From assembly GCA_903875445.1 (NCBI GenBank), contig CAIQWD010000090.1:31616-95615 (forward strand): DNA of 64,000 nucleotides, in the 5' to 3' direction. The translations under genes were made by a program, and so were the position numbers. Below the pieces are notes generated by a model. That model made no database searches. It had not been told where the DNA came from and saw only the letters and a program-made list of their open reading frames with translations. Source of the stretch: an uncultured delta proteobacterium (lineage in GTDB: Bacteria; Desulfobacterota; Desulfobulbia; Desulfobulbales; Desulfocapsaceae). Positions 41,114 to 51,915 of this stretch are shown here, one piece after another. Numbering within the stretch: position 1 is the stretch's first letter; every line of letters begins with the position of its first letter.

Positions 41114-42215
41114 CCAAGAAGATGTGCGTTTCATGCGCCTGGCCCTGAAGGAAGCTACAAGAGGTTTGGGGCGGACCTCGCCAAATCCTTGCGTCGGAGC
41201 AATCATAGTCAAAGATGGCCGGATTATCGCCAAGGGTTATCATAAAAAAGCCGGAACCCCGCATGCCGAGATTAATGCAATACGGCAGGCGACCGAAACT
41301 GTTGCCGGGGCAACTATGTATGTAACGCTTGAACCCTGCAATCATACAGGAAAAACCCCGCCTTGCACTCGTGCCTTGGTCGAGAGTGGAATTTCCCGGG
41401 TCGTGGTCGGAATGAAGGATCCCAACCCGCTTGTCAACGGAACAGGCATAGCTTTTCTCAAAGGTTGCGGGGTGGCCGTTACCAGTGGCATCCTCGAAAA
41501 AGAGTGTGAAGAAATAAATGCCCCGTTTCTCAAATATATTACCACCGGTCTTCCTTGGATGATAATGAAGGCGGGAGTGAGTCTCGATGGTCGATTAAAT
41601 TATCAAGAAGGAAAATCCGGTTGGATTACCGGGCAAGAATCGGTGATTGAGGCACATAAACTCAGGGACAGGGTCGATGCCGTTCTTCTCGGAGGTCGAA
41701 CAATACTCATAGATAATCCGTCACTTACCACAAGACTTCCTCAAGGACGAACAAAAGATCCGGTGCGGATTATTGTCGATAGCAAGTTGTCCACGCACCC
41801 CAATGCCAAGGTGTATCACCTTGATTCTCCGGCACCGACATGGGTGTTCCATTCAGAGGATGCTCCTCCGGCAAAGATTGCCGATTTTCAGGTTCAGGGC
41901 ATTCGGCTTTTCCCGATGTTAGGCGAAAACGGTGGCTTAGACCTTTGGGGAATCATCAAGACATTGGGGCGAGAGGGGCTTTGTTCGGTTATGGTCGAAG
42001 GCGGGGCAAAATTGCATGGAGCATTCTTAAAGGCGCAGCTCTTCGATTACGCTTATCTGTTTTATGCGCCTCTTTTTGCAGGGGATAAAGGGGTGGGTTT
42101 GACTGCAGGGCTTCATGTGCAGGATCGGCTGAATGCCCCAAAACTGGTGTCGGTTCGCTATAAAAAGCTCGGAGATGATATGCTAATTTCCGGTCGGATA
42201 ACCTATTACAACTAG
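41106..42215 (+). CDS. ribD: bifunctional riboflavin deaminase/reductase RibD
   Basis: MRLALKEATRGLGRTSPNPCVGAIIVKDG, HAEINAI, PCNHTGKTPPCT. Confidence 0.95.
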   Translation: MNSQEDVRFMRLALKEATRGLGRTSPNPCVGAIIVKDGRIIAKGYHKKAGTPHAEINAIRQATETVAGATMYVTLEPCNHTGKTPPCTRALVESGISRVVVGMKDPNPLVNGTGIAFLKGCGVAVTSGILEKECEEINAPFLKYITTGLPWMIMKAGVSLDGRLNYQEGKSGWITGQESVIEAHKLRDRVDAVLLGGRTILIDNPSLTTRLPQGRTKDPVRIIVDSKLSTHPNAKVYHLDSPAPTWVFHSEDAPPAKIADFQVQGIRLFPMLGENGGLDLWGIIKTLGREGLCSVMVEGGAKLHGAFLKAQLFDYAYLFYAPLFAGDKGVGLTAGLHVQDRLNAPKLVSVRYKKLGDDMLISGRITYYN

Positions 42216-43171
42216 TTGTTGTTCATTAACAAGGTGTTGATTTTTGGCGCCATTCTTGCGCAGTCGGCAAAATTGCCAAAAGTGATTGAAAGGGTGACGT
42301 CGTCTTTTTCAAATGATGGGCTGTGTGAAACGGTGCATTGTGCTGGCAAACGCAGAGCTTGCACCTGTCGTGCGAAATTCTCCTCGGCCTCCCTAGACAG
42401 AGGACAAAACTGGTGCTGTAGATACGTGTTGAGATGTTGCAACTTCTGCGGAACATTCAACACAGGATGTTTGAGAATTTCAGAGATTGTCGGGTTTTTA
42501 AGGAACGCCGAGATGGAAGAGTTTTGGCGAAATGCAAGATCGCGAATGAGAGTGAAGAACCTCTTTTGTTTACCATCTCCCATGGCAAGATCTCTAAAAA
42601 GCAGTACCAAGGCAAGTCGATCGGAACTTTCAGGCAATCTTAAGAGTTCTGCAACCATTTTCTCCTGGAGTCGACCGGCATGTATCTCGGTGATCATGAT
42701 CGGATCTTGCTGCAGAATGTTGTTGAGTTCCTTGATGGTTGAAGCTTGTTTCCTCAACTGCAATCTTTCCAGATACATTAAAATAATATCTTGCTGATTG
42801 AGGTAGCAGGTGCAAATCTCAATAAACTTGGCCTTTTCAGCAAGAGATAACGGATGGTAAAGATTTTGATCGGTCAGCAAAGTATCGAGTAGAACAGTTA
42901 CTTTAGTGTCCTTTGCAAAGACCAGACATTCTATGTTTTCCACTTGCGCATTTGCCAAGGCAAATTGCAGACGCTTGAAGCCGCAAAGAATATCAAAACG
43001 GCCATCTTCTTTAGCAAGAAGGATAGGTTTATGGATAATGCCTGTCCGATAAAAAGATTGGAGCAGGGCATCGGAAATGGTTTGCGAGTCCCAGGGATGA
43101 AGACTCCATTCTTTGGTAAAAATAATTGCCTTTAATGATAATGTACAGTACGAGAGATTTGTTGCGGACAT
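42212..43171 (-). CDS. ParB N-terminal domain-like protein (orphan)
   Basis: 319 aa; SFYRTGIIHKPILLAKEDGRFDILCGFKRLQFALANAQVENIECLVF resembles ParB/Srx domain; LSLAEKAKFIEI...; no ParA neighbour. Confidence 0.6.
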   Translation of the reverse strand: MSATNLSYCTLSLKAIIFTKEWSLHPWDSQTISDALLQSFYRTGIIHKPILLAKEDGRFDILCGFKRLQFALANAQVENIECLVFAKDTKVTVLLDTLLTDQNLYHPLSLAEKAKFIEICTCYLNQQDIILMYLERLQLRKQASTIKELNNILQQDPIMITEIHAGRLQEKMVAELLRLPESSDRLALVLLFRDLAMGDGKQKRFFTLIRDLAFRQNSSISAFLKNPTISEILKHPVLNVPQKLQHLNTYLQHQFCPLSREAEENFARQVQALRLPAQCTVSHSPSFEKDDVTLSITFGNFADCARMAPKINTLLMNNN

Positions 43172-43773: not shown

Positions 43774-44982
43774 TCACATCATAACGCTTGAAAGTTTGAA
43801 GATCGGCAGATACATGGCAACGACAATACCGCCTATCATTCCACCGAGAAAAACCATCATAAAAGGTTCTATCATTGCGGTTAAATTGTCAACCGCCTGA
43901 TCGACCTCCTCATCATAAAAATCGGCAATTTTTTCTAACATAACATCGAGAGCACCAACAGACTCTCCGACATTTATCATCTGGACAACCATGTTGGGAA
44001 AAACGCCGCTTTCTTCGAGTGGTTCAGCTATTGGTCGTCCTTCAGCGATTGAATCGCCGACTCGGAAGACCGCCTTTTCGATGACCTTGTTGCCGGAAGT
44101 TCTCGCGACAACCTGCAGTGCCTCCAAAATTGGAACACCAGCGCTGAGCATAGTGCTCAGGGTACGGGTAAATTTAGCAACCGCTACTTTGCGTAGCAAA
44201 ATACCAAAAATCGGAGCCTTAAGTAAAGTTCTGTCGAAAAATGTCCTGCCTTTTTCTGTCGCATAGGTTTTCTTTACTGCCATCACTATTATGAAAAAAG
44301 CAATTATGATGTAAAGAAAATTGGATTTAAAAAATTCGCTCAAATTAACAACTATTTGCGTGGGAAGAGGGAGGCTGTGCCCAAATCCTTCAAACATGGT
44401 CTTGAAAACGGGAACAACAAACACCAAAATAACAATGAGAATGACAATTGAAATTCCCAGGCAAACTGTTGGGTAGGTCATTGCGCCTTTGATTTTCTTT
44501 TTCAGCGACATGGATTTTTCCATGAAAGTGGCCAGTCTTGTGAGAATGGTGTCAAGAATACCACCCGTTTCACCGGCCTCAATCATGTTGGTGAAAAGGT
44601 TGTCGAATATTTTCGGCTTTTTTCGCATAGAATCAGCAAGAGTCGATCCTGCCTCAACATCAGAGCGAATTTCATTTAAAGTCTTTTTGAAGGTTGGATT
44701 TTCCTGTTGTTTCTCAAGTATTTCAAGTCCTTGCACTAGGGGTAGTCCGGCATTGATCATAGTTGAGAGTTGCCGGGTAAAAACGACAATGTCTTTTCCG
44801 GTAACTTTCGGTTTAAAAAAAGCAATATTATCGAAAAGGCCTTTTGGCTTTTCCTTAATGACCAGATCGTTGATTCGCAATCGTTTTAATTGTGCCAGCG
44901 CACCGGCCTGATCGGGGGCCTCAACCTCTCCTTTTCGTTTTTCACCTGCAGAATTTTTCCCCTTCCAGACATAAACAGGCAT
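43774..44982 (-). CDS. pilC: type IV pilus / type II secretion inner membrane protein PilC
   Basis: YVWKGKNSAGEKRKGEVEAPD, VFTRQLSTMINAGLPLVQGLEIL, FTRTLSTMLSAGVPILEALQVV, GESVGALDVMLEKIADFYDEEVD. Confidence 0.93.
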   Translation of the reverse strand: MPVYVWKGKNSAGEKRKGEVEAPDQAGALAQLKRLRINDLVIKEKPKGLFDNIAFFKPKVTGKDIVVFTRQLSTMINAGLPLVQGLEILEKQQENPTFKKTLNEIRSDVEAGSTLADSMRKKPKIFDNLFTNMIEAGETGGILDTILTRLATFMEKSMSLKKKIKGAMTYPTVCLGISIVILIVILVFVVPVFKTMFEGFGHSLPLPTQIVVNLSEFFKSNFLYIIIAFFIIVMAVKKTYATEKGRTFFDRTLLKAPIFGILLRKVAVAKFTRTLSTMLSAGVPILEALQVVARTSGNKVIEKAVFRVGDSIAEGRPIAEPLEESGVFPNMVVQMINVGESVGALDVMLEKIADFYDEEVDQAVDNLTAMIEPFMMVFLGGMIGGIVVAMYLPIFKLSSVMM

Positions 44983-47557: not shown

Positions 47558-47956
47558 ATGAATTACGGTATTGTCAGTCAAGAACAACTCGAGCAGATTG
47601 ATCGGATTTTGGCAGAGAAGTTGATAAAACTCGGTGTTGATTGCGTAATTATCATCGATATGGCCGGTAATATTATTACCGCCAAGGATAACGGTGAAAG
47701 CAAATACGATGTCTACTCTTTTGCTGCGCTGGCGGCCGGTAATTTTGCAACAGTCGATGCCATGGCCAAGCTTGTTGGTGAACAAGAATTTTCCCTACTG
47801 TTTCATAAAGGTCAGGAATCAAATATTCATTTCAGTAAAATCGATGACGAATTGCTTCTCATCTCCATGTTTGGGCGTGATATATCCCTTGGCTTTCTTC
47901 GTCTCAATGTTGTTGATGTTATAGAAAAAATAAGAAAAGTTTGGGAGAGGAAATAA
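47558..47956 (+). CDS. roadblock/LC7 domain protein (MglB-like)
   Basis: 132 aa; VDCVIIIDMAGNIITAKDNG...SFAALAAGNFATVDAMAKLVGEQEFSLLFHKGQESNIHFSKID. Confidence 0.85.
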   Translation: MNYGIVSQEQLEQIDRILAEKLIKLGVDCVIIIDMAGNIITAKDNGESKYDVYSFAALAAGNFATVDAMAKLVGEQEFSLLFHKGQESNIHFSKIDDELLLISMFGRDISLGFLRLNVVDVIEKIRKVWERK

Positions 47957-48042
47957 GGTCGACCGGCTTCATTATATGAGTCGATTCGGCATGATGAGAA
48001 AATCACAAACCTCTGCAGCGATCATCAACAGGGAGTAGAACG

Positions 48043-48648
48043 TTGAGCTTTATCAATTTAAAAGACAAGATAGTGCAGGTAAAGATTGTGTATTACGGCC
48101 CCGGACGGTGTGGGAAAACCACCAACTTGGAGTACATTAATCGAACGTATCGTAAACAGATCGCTTCAGAGATGGTCAGTTTGAAAACTCACGGAGATCG
48201 GACGCTTTTTTTTGACTTTTTACCATTTGATATGGGGCAGATCAAGGGCTATGACATCAAAATTCAGCTTTATACCGTGCCTGGGCAGGTGAAATATAAT
48301 GCCACCCGAAAACTGGTGCTGCGAGGCGTCGATGGTATTGTCTTTGTTGCTGATGCCATGGAAAAACAGCGCGAAAAAAATATCCGATCCTTGAATCAAC
48401 TCCATGAAAATCTCCAGTCATATAAGGAGAGTATTTTCAGAATTCCGTTGGTAATGCAATATAATAAAGTTGACCTCAAGGAGCACGGGATCCCCATCCT
48501 TCCGACGTCTGTGTTGGAAAAGGACCTCAATAGCAGACTGAAAGTACCCTATTTTGAGGCAAGTGCGATTACTGGGTACAATGTCGCCGCGACATTGAAG
48601 AAAATAATTTCTTCCTCGGTGATTTCAATCCAGAAAAAATTACTCTAG
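48043..48648 (+). CDS. MglA-like small GTPase
   Basis: IVYYGPGRCGKTTNLEYI P-loop, TVPGQVKYNATRKLVLRGVDGIVFVADAM, MQYNKVDL. Confidence 0.92.
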   Translation: MSFINLKDKIVQVKIVYYGPGRCGKTTNLEYINRTYRKQIASEMVSLKTHGDRTLFFDFLPFDMGQIKGYDIKIQLYTVPGQVKYNATRKLVLRGVDGIVFVADAMEKQREKNIRSLNQLHENLQSYKESIFRIPLVMQYNKVDLKEHGIPILPTSVLEKDLNSRLKVPYFEASAITGYNVAATLKKIISSSVISIQKKLL

Positions 48649-48657
48649 AGAGAAACT

Positions 48658-51600
48658 GTGGTGAAACAGTATACCGAAAACCAATATGATGATGACTTAA
48701 CTCTTGGTAATGATGAGCATGATGAATCATATTACACTGATGCGGATGATCTCTTTGAATTTTCAACAGATGATGAGTCACCCATCAGCCGCCTGAAGAG
48801 TTTGGTCCTGTCGATAGACTGGGAGATTACCGATGAGGTCTTACTTCAGTTCAATGAGGAGTTGCTCGATCTTAAGGGCATCTGGGCAGGGGAAACAATC
48901 AATTTGGTATATGTCCAGGCCTTGGAGAAGATAAGTAAATATATTTATCAGAATAAGGCCGATTCTCACCCTAATGCGATTAAGTTACTTCTCACTTTTT
49001 ATTATAACCTTGAGAAGATAGTGTCATCTCAAGATCTTTCAGAAGAACAGAAGAAAGAAATTCTTTTGGAAGACGTAAAAAAATTTGAGAATCTGAAACG
49101 TCAGATCAAACAGAAACCATCCTCCGTACCACACCGGGAACCTGTAAGGCCACAATCTCAAAAGATTATAAAAGAAGTCTCCAGTGAAGGTCAACTGCTG
49201 AATCTCAAGGCTATTGTTCTGGGGATTGATTGGGAGATTACCGACCAGGATCTGAATGATTTGCGACGGGAAGTTTTTCGGCTTGAGGAAAAATTTTCCG
49301 AAAGCCGCCCGAAACTCATTCTTCTTCAGGGTATCGGAACCCTTGCTACTTATATCAAGGTAAAGAAAAGCAATGCCCATCCTGATGCATTTAAGGTTAT
49401 GCAGCTTTTTTTTGAAGGCCTTGAAAAGATCGTTCAGAAACCAATGAGTTTGGAGGCGGAAAAAAATATCCTTTTTCCTGCTGTTGAGAAATTCAACTCC
49501 TTCAAGGCGTTGCTCGGACCGACGATTTCGCCTGATGCGATTATCAAAAAAGATGACGAGGCCATTGAGGATTATGGTTCGAAAAATAAGGTGAATGAGA
49601 TTTCACCAGCTTTGGCCGATGTATCGGAAGAGGAGGTAGGCTTCCAGGCTGATAAGGAGGCAGTGGCTTTGGGATTGAAAGATTCCGGTGGCGTCGCCTC
49701 TCATATCGATAATTTCTTTGGAGAAAATGCAGTAAATCAATTTTTCGCAGAAGAAGTTGTTGAACAAGATGAAAAGATCGAAGAATCTCCAGACATTATT
49801 GGTTTCCAAGGAGACGAGATCGTTGTCTCGGTCGAAAGGGATTTGGCACTTCAGGGGGTTGATGTTGAAGGGGATGATGAGGAGCAGCCGGAAAGTGAAG
49901 ATACTGTAACAGGAGAAGATATTTTTGCGCCTCTTGACTCTGAAGAGCCTGTCACAGTTGAAGAGGAGGAAGCTGCATTCGTGATCGAACCGGTTGTAAC
50001 GGACAAGGTCGCTCAACAGGAAGAAGAACAGGAGAAGTCGATATTGACAGAGGAAGCAATTGTCGTGGCAGCTGAGACGATATTCCCTGTAGATGCTCAA
50101 GAATTTCCTGAATTTGAGCAAGAAATTGTCGCTTTGGATAGAGAAAAAGCTCTTCAGGGTGTCAATGTCGAGACCGATGCCGATGACGATACCGACGAAT
50201 TATCCTTGCCCATGGAGGGGGAGGAATTGGCTCCTGCTCTTGCCGCAATGGACGAGGAAAGCCTTTTTAGTGCAACCACCCTTGATCGAGCACCGATCTC
50301 CAGCAGTGTTAGTGAAGAGATTGTCGGCACCATAGATGGATTGTTTCTTGACCATGATGGCATTTCTGCTATTCCTCCTTCCGGGAGTCTCCCAAAAGAA
50401 GATCAAGGTATTGATGCCAATACTACAGAAGTTCAAGAGGAAGAACTTATCGGTTTTGAAGACTGGCTGAAAGAGGATGGCAAAGAGGAAGATCTCTTGT
50501 CTGCAGCGGTTGCGGCGGAGGGCGTCCTGGAAGCAGACCAAGAGGCGTTTGTTAACGGTGCGGAGGAGCCGCTACCGGTGGAAGACGAGGCCGAAAATGA
50601 ACTCGCGACAATGGATTTTGTTGAGGATCAAGAAGATGACCTGAGTTCCTTCTTTACGGATAACGAGCTTGAGCAGAGCACTAAAGATGGTTCTGCAATT
50701 GACGCTCTTTTTGACAGCCTGGAAACCGACCTTGTTGAAGAAGAGATTGCTCCTCCAGCAATTATCGACAACGTAGATACATTTTTCAGTTCTGCAGAGG
50801 ACCGGGAAGAACCGGATGAGGTGGTACGACCCCGAGTATCCCCGGAAAAGAGGGAAGAGGATGTCGTCGAAAAACCAATGAGTGATCTCTTCGCCGAAAC
50901 TGATAGTGTTGAAGAGGAGGTGGTTTTTGAACTCTTCAAGGAAGAAATCGAACCGGATGTTGTGGTCGGACAGGAAAGTGGTGAAGAAAGAGAGTTGCCT
51001 GCTTTGGCAACGGTGCTTGCTTCTGATGCGATTCTGGAGATCGACTTGGTTGGAGCCCCTGGCGATGAGATTGTTGAAGAATTGGCAGCCGACGGTATCG
51101 CTGCTGCTGCAGAACGAAGAAAACTTGAGCCGCTTGGTGCTTTACAAGTTTGCATTGACTCCTTGAAGCTTGAACTGAGCGATACGATTATTGCTGGTTT
51201 GTTCCAGGAAATCAACACCCTGCGTCAAAAATGGGTCGAGAAACCGCTAGAAAAGACTTTCTTGCAGCTCTTGTCGACCATCACGCAACATATTGACAGC
51301 TATCGATACGAGTCCAGTGCAGAGGCATATGGACTTCTTGTTTCCATTTGTCAAACAATGTCCAATTTGCAGGCTGATGACCCCCGTGGTAATCAGGAAA
51401 ATTTGCTGGGTGCAACACTTAACGTCTTGGAGTGGCAGCAAGGCATGCTGTCGCGACAGGCAGTAAAAAAAGGGGACCAGTTGATTTTTGCCGATCCGCT
51501 ACGGACGGAAAAAGAGGACAACTATCGATCGGATGCGCAAAAAGACTTTGATAACATTTTACATCATTATGGAGACAGTGCAACCCAAGACGTCCATGAT

Positions 51601-51813
51601 GCCTATGATTTTCCTGGCGAAATTGCAGCAGAAGCCGATGACGGACTTTCTTTTGCAGATGAAATTACTGAAGGAAAAGTGATGCTGGAGGCGGAAAATG
51701 TTGAAGGCATAGGGGAAGCCTTTGCGGATGATCTGAAAAAAGAAATTGCCGCCTTACGGCAAACCTTGCAGATGGAGATAGCCGAGCTGCGGAGGGAATT
51801 AAAAAAAGATTAG
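48658..51813 (+). CDS. large acidic repeat protein (three copies of an approx. 110-aa helical domain plus long acidic linker)
   Basis: 1051 aa; repeats at about 48781-49110, 49190-49520, 51121-51460; GTG start; adjacent to MglA-like gene. Confidence 0.85.
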   Translation: MVKQYTENQYDDDLTLGNDEHDESYYTDADDLFEFSTDDESPISRLKSLVLSIDWEITDEVLLQFNEELLDLKGIWAGETINLVYVQALEKISKYIYQNKADSHPNAIKLLLTFYYNLEKIVSSQDLSEEQKKEILLEDVKKFENLKRQIKQKPSSVPHREPVRPQSQKIIKEVSSEGQLLNLKAIVLGIDWEITDQDLNDLRREVFRLEEKFSESRPKLILLQGIGTLATYIKVKKSNAHPDAFKVMQLFFEGLEKIVQKPMSLEAEKNILFPAVEKFNSFKALLGPTISPDAIIKKDDEAIEDYGSKNKVNEISPALADVSEEEVGFQADKEAVALGLKDSGGVASHIDNFFGENAVNQFFAEEVVEQDEKIEESPDIIGFQGDEIVVSVERDLALQGVDVEGDDEEQPESEDTVTGEDIFAPLDSEEPVTVEEEEAAFVIEPVVTDKVAQQEEEQEKSILTEEAIVVAAETIFPVDAQEFPEFEQEIVALDREKALQGVNVETDADDDTDELSLPMEGEELAPALAAMDEESLFSATTLDRAPISSSVSEEIVGTIDGLFLDHDGISAIPPSGSLPKEDQGIDANTTEVQEEELIGFEDWLKEDGKEEDLLSAAVAAEGVLEADQEAFVNGAEEPLPVEDEAENELATMDFVEDQEDDLSSFFTDNELEQSTKDGSAIDALFDSLETDLVEEEIAPPAIIDNVDTFFSSAEDREEPDEVVRPRVSPEKREEDVVEKPMSDLFAETDSVEEEVVFELFKEEIEPDVVVGQESGEERELPALATVLASDAILEIDLVGAPGDEIVEELAADGIAAAAERRKLEPLGALQVCIDSLKLELSDTIIAGLFQEINTLRQKWVEKPLEKTFLQLLSTITQHIDSYRYESSAEAYGLLVSICQTMSNLQADDPRGNQENLLGATLNVLEWQQGMLSRQAVKKGDQLIFADPLRTEKEDNYRSDAQKDFDNILHHYGDSATQDVHDAYDFPGEIAAEADDGLSFADEITEGKVMLEAENVEGIGEAFADDLKKEIAALRQTLQMEIAELRRELKKD

Positions 51814-51850
51814 GAGTCGTTAAGCACTGCCCGAAAAATTTGCTGTTTGG

Positions 51851-51888
51851 AAAAGGGTTATCTCCCGTGTAGGGAGATAACCCTTTTT
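51851..51888 (+). terminator. Rho-independent terminator after acidic repeat protein
   Basis: AAAAGGGTTATCTCCC-GTGTA-GGGAGATAACCC-T7. Confidence 0.88.
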
Positions 51889-51915
51889 TTCTCTCTTACT
51901 GCCGGGTCATGATGA

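Follow-up and report, generated by a model that had tools for sequence, protein, structure and literature searches.

We suggest that the DNA analysed here, a stretch of 64,000 nucleotides (the window) from an uncultured member of the Desulfocapsaceae, encodes an MglAB-type polarity switch together with a dedicated new family of adaptor or effector proteins that acts on type IV pilus extension, a reading to which we lend somewhat more belief than doubt. The module comprises three genes on the forward strand: a gene for an MglB-like roadblock protein, the putative GAP of the GTPase (47558..47956; 132 aa, ATG start), one for an MglA-type small GTPase (48043..48648; 201 aa, TTG start) and one for a very large acidic protein, here termed the D-protein and regarded as a candidate adaptor or effector (48658..51813; 1051 aa, GTG start). 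All three open reading frames lie where an initial annotation of this DNA had placed them, co-directional and separated by short gaps of 86 nt between the roadblock and GTPase genes and of 9 nt, rather than the 10 nt given there, between the GTPase stop codon and the GTG of the third gene. The strong terminator reported to follow them is also real: on the forward strand, an 18-pair stem with a 5-nt loop and a T-rich tail closes the cluster at 51849..51889.

The MglAB-like pair and its linked third gene

Three nucleotide-binding motifs had been described as intact in the GTPase, and all are: GPGRCGKTTN (G1, residues 19-28), TVPGQV (G3, residues 78-83) and NKVD (residues 141-144). The protein matches M. 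xanthus MglA with 175 bits (phmmer, E 1e-50), and alignment to the solved MglA identifies Thr78 and the catalytic Q82 within the G3 TVPGQ (residues 78-82), as well as an arginine finger, R53, that adjoins the G2 threonine (R53-T54 in GDRTLFFDFLP); R53 and Q82 even carry the same numbers as in the Myxococcus protein. On these sequence features, and with a linked MglB roadblock gene, we class the GTPase as a Group-1-type MglA, and it is the sole MglA homologue found in the assembly. The roadblock protein matches the solved M. xanthus MglB with 57 bits (phmmer, E 1.6e-14), scores 52.6 bits against the NCBIfam MglB model, under the curated cut-off of 200, and 22.7 bits against Pfam Robl_LC7, where the cut-off is 23. 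It is 81-99% identical in relatives of the same family, and of the 49 relatives that have the GTPase, the window's own genome counted, 48 carry a roadblock gene beside it.

It is the linkage of the third gene that carries the argument. The D-protein is present in 42 of 57 relatives and is encoded directly 3' of the GTPase in every one of them (42/42); the same holds for all 80 named loci, in 79 of them at no more than 250 nt and in the remaining one at 282 nt; most gaps there measure 3-40 nt, or the two genes overlap slightly. Across 297 genomes of the phylum, 54 of 63 D matches sit 3' of an MglA-type GTPase, in 31 families. The order roadblock-GTPase-D is repeated in dozens of related genomes, which excludes a chance arrangement of open reading frames. 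Culturable strains with the triple include Desulforhopalus singaporensis DSM 12130 and Desulfobulbus rhabdoformis DSM 8777. According to the initial annotation, the genes form an MglAB-like module whose third component is uncharacterised, and a lack of linkage in other genomes would have refuted this. The neighbourhood analysis, now run, supports the proposal: within the order Desulfobulbales the linkage is near-total, and it extends to 31 families of the phylum. Within the window's own family the whole block yggS-tatD-[module]-coaD-rsmD is syntenic, as one would expect had the acidic gene come to lie beside mglBA by chance or been retained there passively. Outside it the flanking genes change and the three-gene order persists, which refutes that explanation, and we give it practically no credence. 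Nor do we find it at all probable that the D-protein works chiefly with the roadblock protein, as a co-GAP or a GAP scaffold tuning GTP hydrolysis. The three genes are close and co-directional, and Myxococcus has bipartite GAP complexes (PMC9481161), but the D-protein tracks the GTPase gene, at the short distances given above.

A repeated helical domain and a motif-rich linker

The third protein had been said to have no recognised counterpart; it has no significant match in Pfam, NCBIfam or PHROG. Its defining feature is D, a five-helix domain of about 115 aa, of which profile matches locate three copies: D1 (48769..49131, residues 38-158), D2 (49180..49542, residues 175-295) and a divergent D3 (51118..51474, residues 821-939), all on the forward strand. 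D1 and D2 match with E 1e-20 (phmmer, in a three-sequence comparison), D1 and D3 align with an hhalign probability of 98% (E 5e-14), and the AlphaFold2 model of D1 reaches a pLDDT of 88.7 and a pTM of 0.82. No significant match to the domain was found in Pfam, NCBIfam or the PDB, and none in a viral fold library; we take D to be a new conserved helical domain outside the curated libraries searched. A fusion of the GTPase with D1-D2, modelled as an artificial in-frame read-through with the TAG read as Gln, yielded folded D domains; the GTPase part did not fold (mostly pLDDT < 50) and no interface was obtained.

Acidity, which the initial annotation had singled out, is genuine (pI 4.07) but belongs to a fast-evolving linker, and what is conserved is the D domain together with short motifs. 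In the family, identity of the D-protein falls to 37-69%, against 85-100% for the GTPase, and its conserved islands are mainly the D domains and these motifs. Two motifs precede D1: QYDDDLT (48682..48702, residues 9-15), whose conservation among 28 long orthologues is 85% or higher, and the conserved DLF motif DDLFEF (48745..48762, residues 30-35). Phylum-wide, a motif of the form [phi][DE]x[phi]F stands before D in 40 of 56 D-proteins, where shuffling predicts 2.3. The linker itself (49555..51117, residues 300-820), marked by its net charge and presumed disordered, averages 13-46% identity in blocks of 25 residues, one motif island excepted. Motifs of an IDxLF-like class, N-terminal in most D-proteins, form arrays within the linker (86 observed against 7.4 expected, in 35 orthologues), represented in the window by IDNFF (49705..49719, residues 350-354), IDGLF (50332..50346, residues 559-563), IDALF (50698..50712, residues 681-685) and VDTFF (50773..50787, residues 706-710). 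A second linker motif, found again in nearly all same-family orthologues, occurs twice, as ALQGVDVE (49828..49881, residues 391-408) and, in a conserved island, as ALQGVNVETDAD (50131..50184, residues 492-509). The protein ends in a helix, LKKEIAALRQTLQMEIAELRRELKK (51733..51807, residues 1026-1050), recognised from the alignment and conservation of the C-termini and presumed to be a coiled coil; these features too all lie on the forward strand. In divergent D-proteins, a C-terminal domain was considered as CheW-like and rejected, the resemblance being collinear and not significant (hhalign probability 3%).

Among natural proteins, D comes closest in fold to CheA P1/HPt domains, similar five-helix bundles to which the D1 model aligns with TM 0.53-0.59 both ways (probability 0.87-1.0, E 0.12-0.92), short of significance. 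Homology to them was nevertheless rejected, since the likeness is one of fold only: profile comparison by hhalign gives a probability of 0.1-0.3%, as against the 98% between D1 and D3. The D consensus (A1/A4) lacks a phospho-accepting histidine motif of the H-x-x-K-G type, and the conserved histidine of D, in AHP, sits just before helix 4.

Type IV pilus genes around the module

The pilC gene noted earlier near the module (43774..44982, reverse strand) has the Myxococcus-type PilC as its best NCBIfam match, at 532 bits and below the cut-off of 700, and its synteny is kept in most relatives. It had been called circumstantial, and for the module it is; what now backs it is the presence of a PilB-type ATPase gene or pilM beside the module in other families. 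The PilB-type ATPase gene lies on the same strand as the module in about 20 loci, often as the very next gene, and its product joins T2SSE and MshEN to N-terminal TPR, with TIGR02538 as best NCBIfam match; this count leaves out L236, L252 and L254, where PilB-like BLAST scores of 46-64 bits probably reflect TPR matches. In one genome (G135) PilM, PilN and PilO come after the module, and in 10 further genomes PilM is encoded 1-4 kb 3' of the GTPase. PilM is present in 61 of 61 genomes with D and in 235 of 297 overall (hypergeometric 9e-8, a statistic that ignores ancestry). The argument from co-occurrence is weakened by the fact that type IV pilus genes are common in the phylum, and PilT occurs also in relatives without the module, so pili do not require it.

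A polarity or scaffold switch serving a target other than the pilus (gliding, exopolysaccharide, a chemosensory array or the placement of a cell-cycle protein) would suit the window's own family, where no PilB gene stands beside the module, and those families in which the D-protein is followed by serine/threonine kinases with TPR-like repeats and not by pilus genes. We nonetheless judge it unlikely, given the many families with a PilB-type ATPase or pilM adjoining the module and PilM in every D genome.

It is possible, though not probable, that the D-protein stands above the switch in the pathway, as a polar landmark or a GEF- or receptor-side hub responsible for recruiting or activating the GTPase, with receivers docking on the HPt-fold-like D. 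Gene order is neutral between this role and that of an effector. In Myxococcus, RomR/RomX does the job of recruitment or activation. CheA P1/HPt domains dock receivers, and response-regulator/PATAN-like genes are frequent neighbours of the module, a label assigned by BLAST against one or two proteins that in many cases indicates no more than a receiver domain. By description RomR also resembles the D-protein in its long, lineage-variable linker between conserved ends, its acidic regions, including a Glu-rich C-terminal one, and its co-occurrence with MglA/MglB and type IV pili (PMC3441718). Yet RomR has an N-terminal receiver domain, and the D-protein, with no Response_reg match, has none; the fold matches of D are not significant even at their best (E 0.12), the profiles find no HPt homology, and a PilB ATPase adjoining the D-protein favours an output role.

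A candidate effector beside its switch

Most of what is known about how an MglA-type switch reaches its pilus motor comes from Myxococcus, where the connecting proteins are encoded at a distance from mglAB. Across an entire phylum, sulfate reducers and their relatives keep a different partner in the switch's own gene cluster, in some cases with a PilB-type ATPase as the next gene. This suggests that more than one kind of adaptor has come to couple a Ras-like GTPase to pilus extension. Since a new domain stands behind the switch phylum-wide, often beside the pilus motor, the D-protein is a strong candidate for the link between polarity switch and pilus formation. We posit that the roadblock protein would restrict where the GTPase stays GTP-bound, and that the D-protein, as the switch's own partner, would bind the GTPase through its D domains, its short DxLF-type motifs or both. 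Its motif-rich acidic linker may then concentrate a client, in several copies, at a single pole. The client would most likely be the pilus extension machinery, with its PilB-type ATPase and PilM/N/O/C platform, and the GTP-bound switch and the D-protein together would thereby set the place and time of pilus extension. We infer the effector role of the D-protein, its GTPase binding, its polar localisation and its control of pili. A bolder version, which we regard as rather doubtful, would make D a new partner domain of Ras-like GTPases, an HPt-fold bundle that reads the state of MglA without a phospho-histidine, and would have a widespread DxLF docking peptide multiplied in the Desulfobulbales into an acidic multivalent linker, a polar hub clustering pilus motors. 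The module is in any case compact and testable, with a domain outside the curated libraries searched and defined short motifs.

With M. xanthus MglA/MglB and its SgmX, FrzS and SopA, the system shares a Group-1-type MglA (arginine finger, Q82) and an MglB-like roadblock protein as putative GAP. In M. xanthus, MglA-GTP binds SgmX, a 1060-aa protein required for polar PilB (PMC7519303); here too the third protein is very large, and the connection to PilB and type IV pili is one of genomic linkage only, observed in other families. The TPR protein SgmX, however, has its gene apart from mglAB, whereas the D-protein lies directly behind the GTPase, contains no TPR (no match at E up to 1) and carries instead a domain without significant library match, the TPR repeats being found in many families on the PilB-type ATPase. 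Our best reading, by analogy, is that the D-protein would play the part that SgmX plays in Myxococcus, the two being unrelated in sequence. Group 3 MglA systems and the actinobacterial conservons have partners of other kinds, receiver/winged-helix-like proteins or histidine kinase/CvnC, unlike the D-protein. Group 1 neighbourhoods are described as varying widely, with only occasional PATAN genes named (Wuichet and Sogaard-Andersen 2014).

The switch genes and their linked candidate partner

The three open reading frames described in the initial annotation are present, all on the forward strand: a roadblock gene (47558-47956), an MglA-type GTPase (48043-48648) and a gene (48658-51813) for a protein that we term the D-protein, after a helical domain (D) of about 115 residues. 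The last begins close behind the GTPase stop codon, at 9 nt rather than the 10 originally given, and an 18-pair terminator lies 3' of it at 51849-51889. Residues 1-191 of the GTPase align with solved Myxococcus MglA (175 bits). It retains the residues by which Group 1 MglA is defined (PMC4316618), with TVPGQ spanning 78-82 and R53, next to T54, as the arginine finger; the closest solved match of the roadblock protein is MglB (57 bits). This GTPase is the only one of its kind found in the assembly, whose second roadblock is distant and lies elsewhere, at G000:C64. On that contig, L110:5045-6325 (-) encodes a response-regulator protein whose C-terminus is roadblock-like; a PATAN (DUF4388) domain probably separates the two parts, and the protein may provide the GTPase with a second input.

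Linkage in other genomes had been proposed as the test of the module, and it is borne out. Among 57 relatives, 49 carry the GTPase, the roadblock gene adjoins it in 48 of these, and in all 42 that possess a D-protein its gene is directly 3' of the GTPase. A scan taking one genome per species yielded 218 relatives with D; in the best 80 of these D is directly 3' of the GTPase in 80/80, and their titles are nearly all Desulfobulbales or undetermined Deltaproteobacteria/Proteobacteria, the one Chlorobiaceae-titled genome being probably mis-binned. In a phylum-wide sample of 297 genomes, D occurs in 61 (63 proteins), and 54 of the 63, from 31 families, are encoded 3' of a GTPase of this subfamily on the same strand, three at 5-7 kb and the others within 1 kb. 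Among GTPases listed at 200 bits or more, 53 of 85 have a detectable D. Passive synteny does not account for the roadblock-GTPase-D triple, because the flanks are syntenic inside the window's family but not beyond it, while the triple persists.

A 2014 survey of prokaryotic Ras-like GTPases describes Group 1 neighbourhoods as widely variable and, as neighbours, names nothing beyond occasional PATAN genes. A full-text search on mglA in Desulfobulb- taxa, with subscription journals mostly outside its reach, returned no paper. The switch and its GAP are of a known kind, and the partner family is absent from the libraries searched.

Architecture of the D-protein

The third protein (1051 aa) had been called acidic, and its pI is indeed 4.07; the acidity nevertheless belongs to a linker (about 300-820) with 13-46% conservation outside one motif island, and the conserved parts lie elsewhere. 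These include three copies of D, at residues 38-158 (D1), 175-295 (D2) and 821-939 (D3), the kinship of D1 and D3 having an hhalign probability of 98%. Searches of Pfam, NCBIfam and solved-structure sequences give nothing significant for D. AlphaFold2 models D as a confident five-helix bundle (pLDDT 88.7, pTM 0.82). Among natural folds, CheA P1/HPt domains match it best, with TM 0.53-0.59 in both directions and E 0.12 or worse. Given those E-values, with no phospho-histidine motif found in D and no similarity in profile comparison with HPt, any likeness of the predicted domain to HPt is limited to its shape.

Short motifs accompany the domain. QYDDDLT and DLF, both N-terminal, are near-invariant across the window's family, nearly all of whose D-proteins also carry a second repeated motif, ALQGVDVETdAD; the C-terminal helix is kept in most full-length members. 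In the linker, [phi][DE]x[phi]F repeats (in shorthand, DxLF or IDxLF) number 86 in 35 orthologues against 7.4 expected by shuffling, a ratio that is only indicative because the window protein is where the motif was first noticed and the orthologues share ancestry. Phylum-wide, the class precedes D in 40 of 56 D-proteins against 2.3 expected. The D-proteins L231:9390-10580 and L272:8079-9176 (-) have duplicated N-terminal DxLF-like motifs; no related GTPase was found in the genome of L272.

Type IV pilus neighbours

Within the window, proximity to pilC (43774-44982) is still the sole hint of type IV pili, as first remarked, but stronger evidence comes from loci elsewhere. In about 20 module loci a PilB-type ATPase (TPR, MshEN and T2SSE domains in three examples scanned; closest NCBIfam match PilB, below the curated cut-off) lies on the same strand, in about 14 directly after the D-protein gene. 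In two more, L264 (8242-8841) and L265, it trails the GTPase itself by 7-24 nt, with no D-protein detectable between them. At locus L247 of genome G135 the D-protein is followed by a histidine kinase, a response regulator, pilM, pilN and pilO, and in 10 further genomes pilM is 1-4 kb 3' of the GTPase. PilM is present in 61/61 D genomes versus 235/297 overall (hypergeometric 9e-8, without ancestry correction). PilT is present in 56 of the 57 relatives, including those lacking the module, and the module is thus an add-on, not part of the pilus.

In Myxococcus, MglA-GTP binds SgmX, a 1060-aa TPR protein required for polar PilB, and MglB clears MglA-GTP from the opposite pole (PMC7519303). The module shares with that system a switch, a GAP and a third protein of similar size, and its PilB neighbour is frequent in families other than the window's. 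We propose that the D-protein is the adaptor linking the switch to the pilus motor in this phylum, in which the D domains and DxLF peptides would be the binding elements and the acidic linker would supply several docking sites. What the data show directly is the linkage, the domain, the motifs and the pilus neighbours; the protein's binding, direction, localisation and phenotype we infer. The main rival reading would make it a landmark or a GEF-side component.

Behind the D-protein, some families have a serine/threonine kinase that bears TPR-like repeats (L258:5136-7004 (-), L248:11901-13559 (+)), and L249, L260 and L261 have genes of similar size. Adjoining HU and pilC in the window is a 319-aa gene (42212-43171, -), ParB-like by eye and syntenic in most of the family.

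Divergent third proteins

In seven relatives the GTPase is more divergent (51-54%) and the third position is taken by a protein of different appearance, which in three of them gives a weak D match; those read share, by eye, an S-x-x-WE[VI]-like signature. Divergent third proteins such as L099:8934-10457, L107:6832-8406 and L100:7543-9765 carry the helical repeat I-x-PLExLFAxTPGYxKLHxI in 1-3 copies, and their C-terminal domain is collinear with CheW, though without significant profile support. D domains also occur outside the GTPase context (L275:3393-4001 (-), L274:7519-8520, L276:8089-9330), one fused to an apparent winged-helix C-terminus and the others to the CheW-collinear domain. At L266:8136-8741 (-), L268, L269 and L280 the GTPase is followed by a gene of about 390-410 aa that takes the place of a D-protein and that in L269 looks, by eye, PATAN-like at its start.
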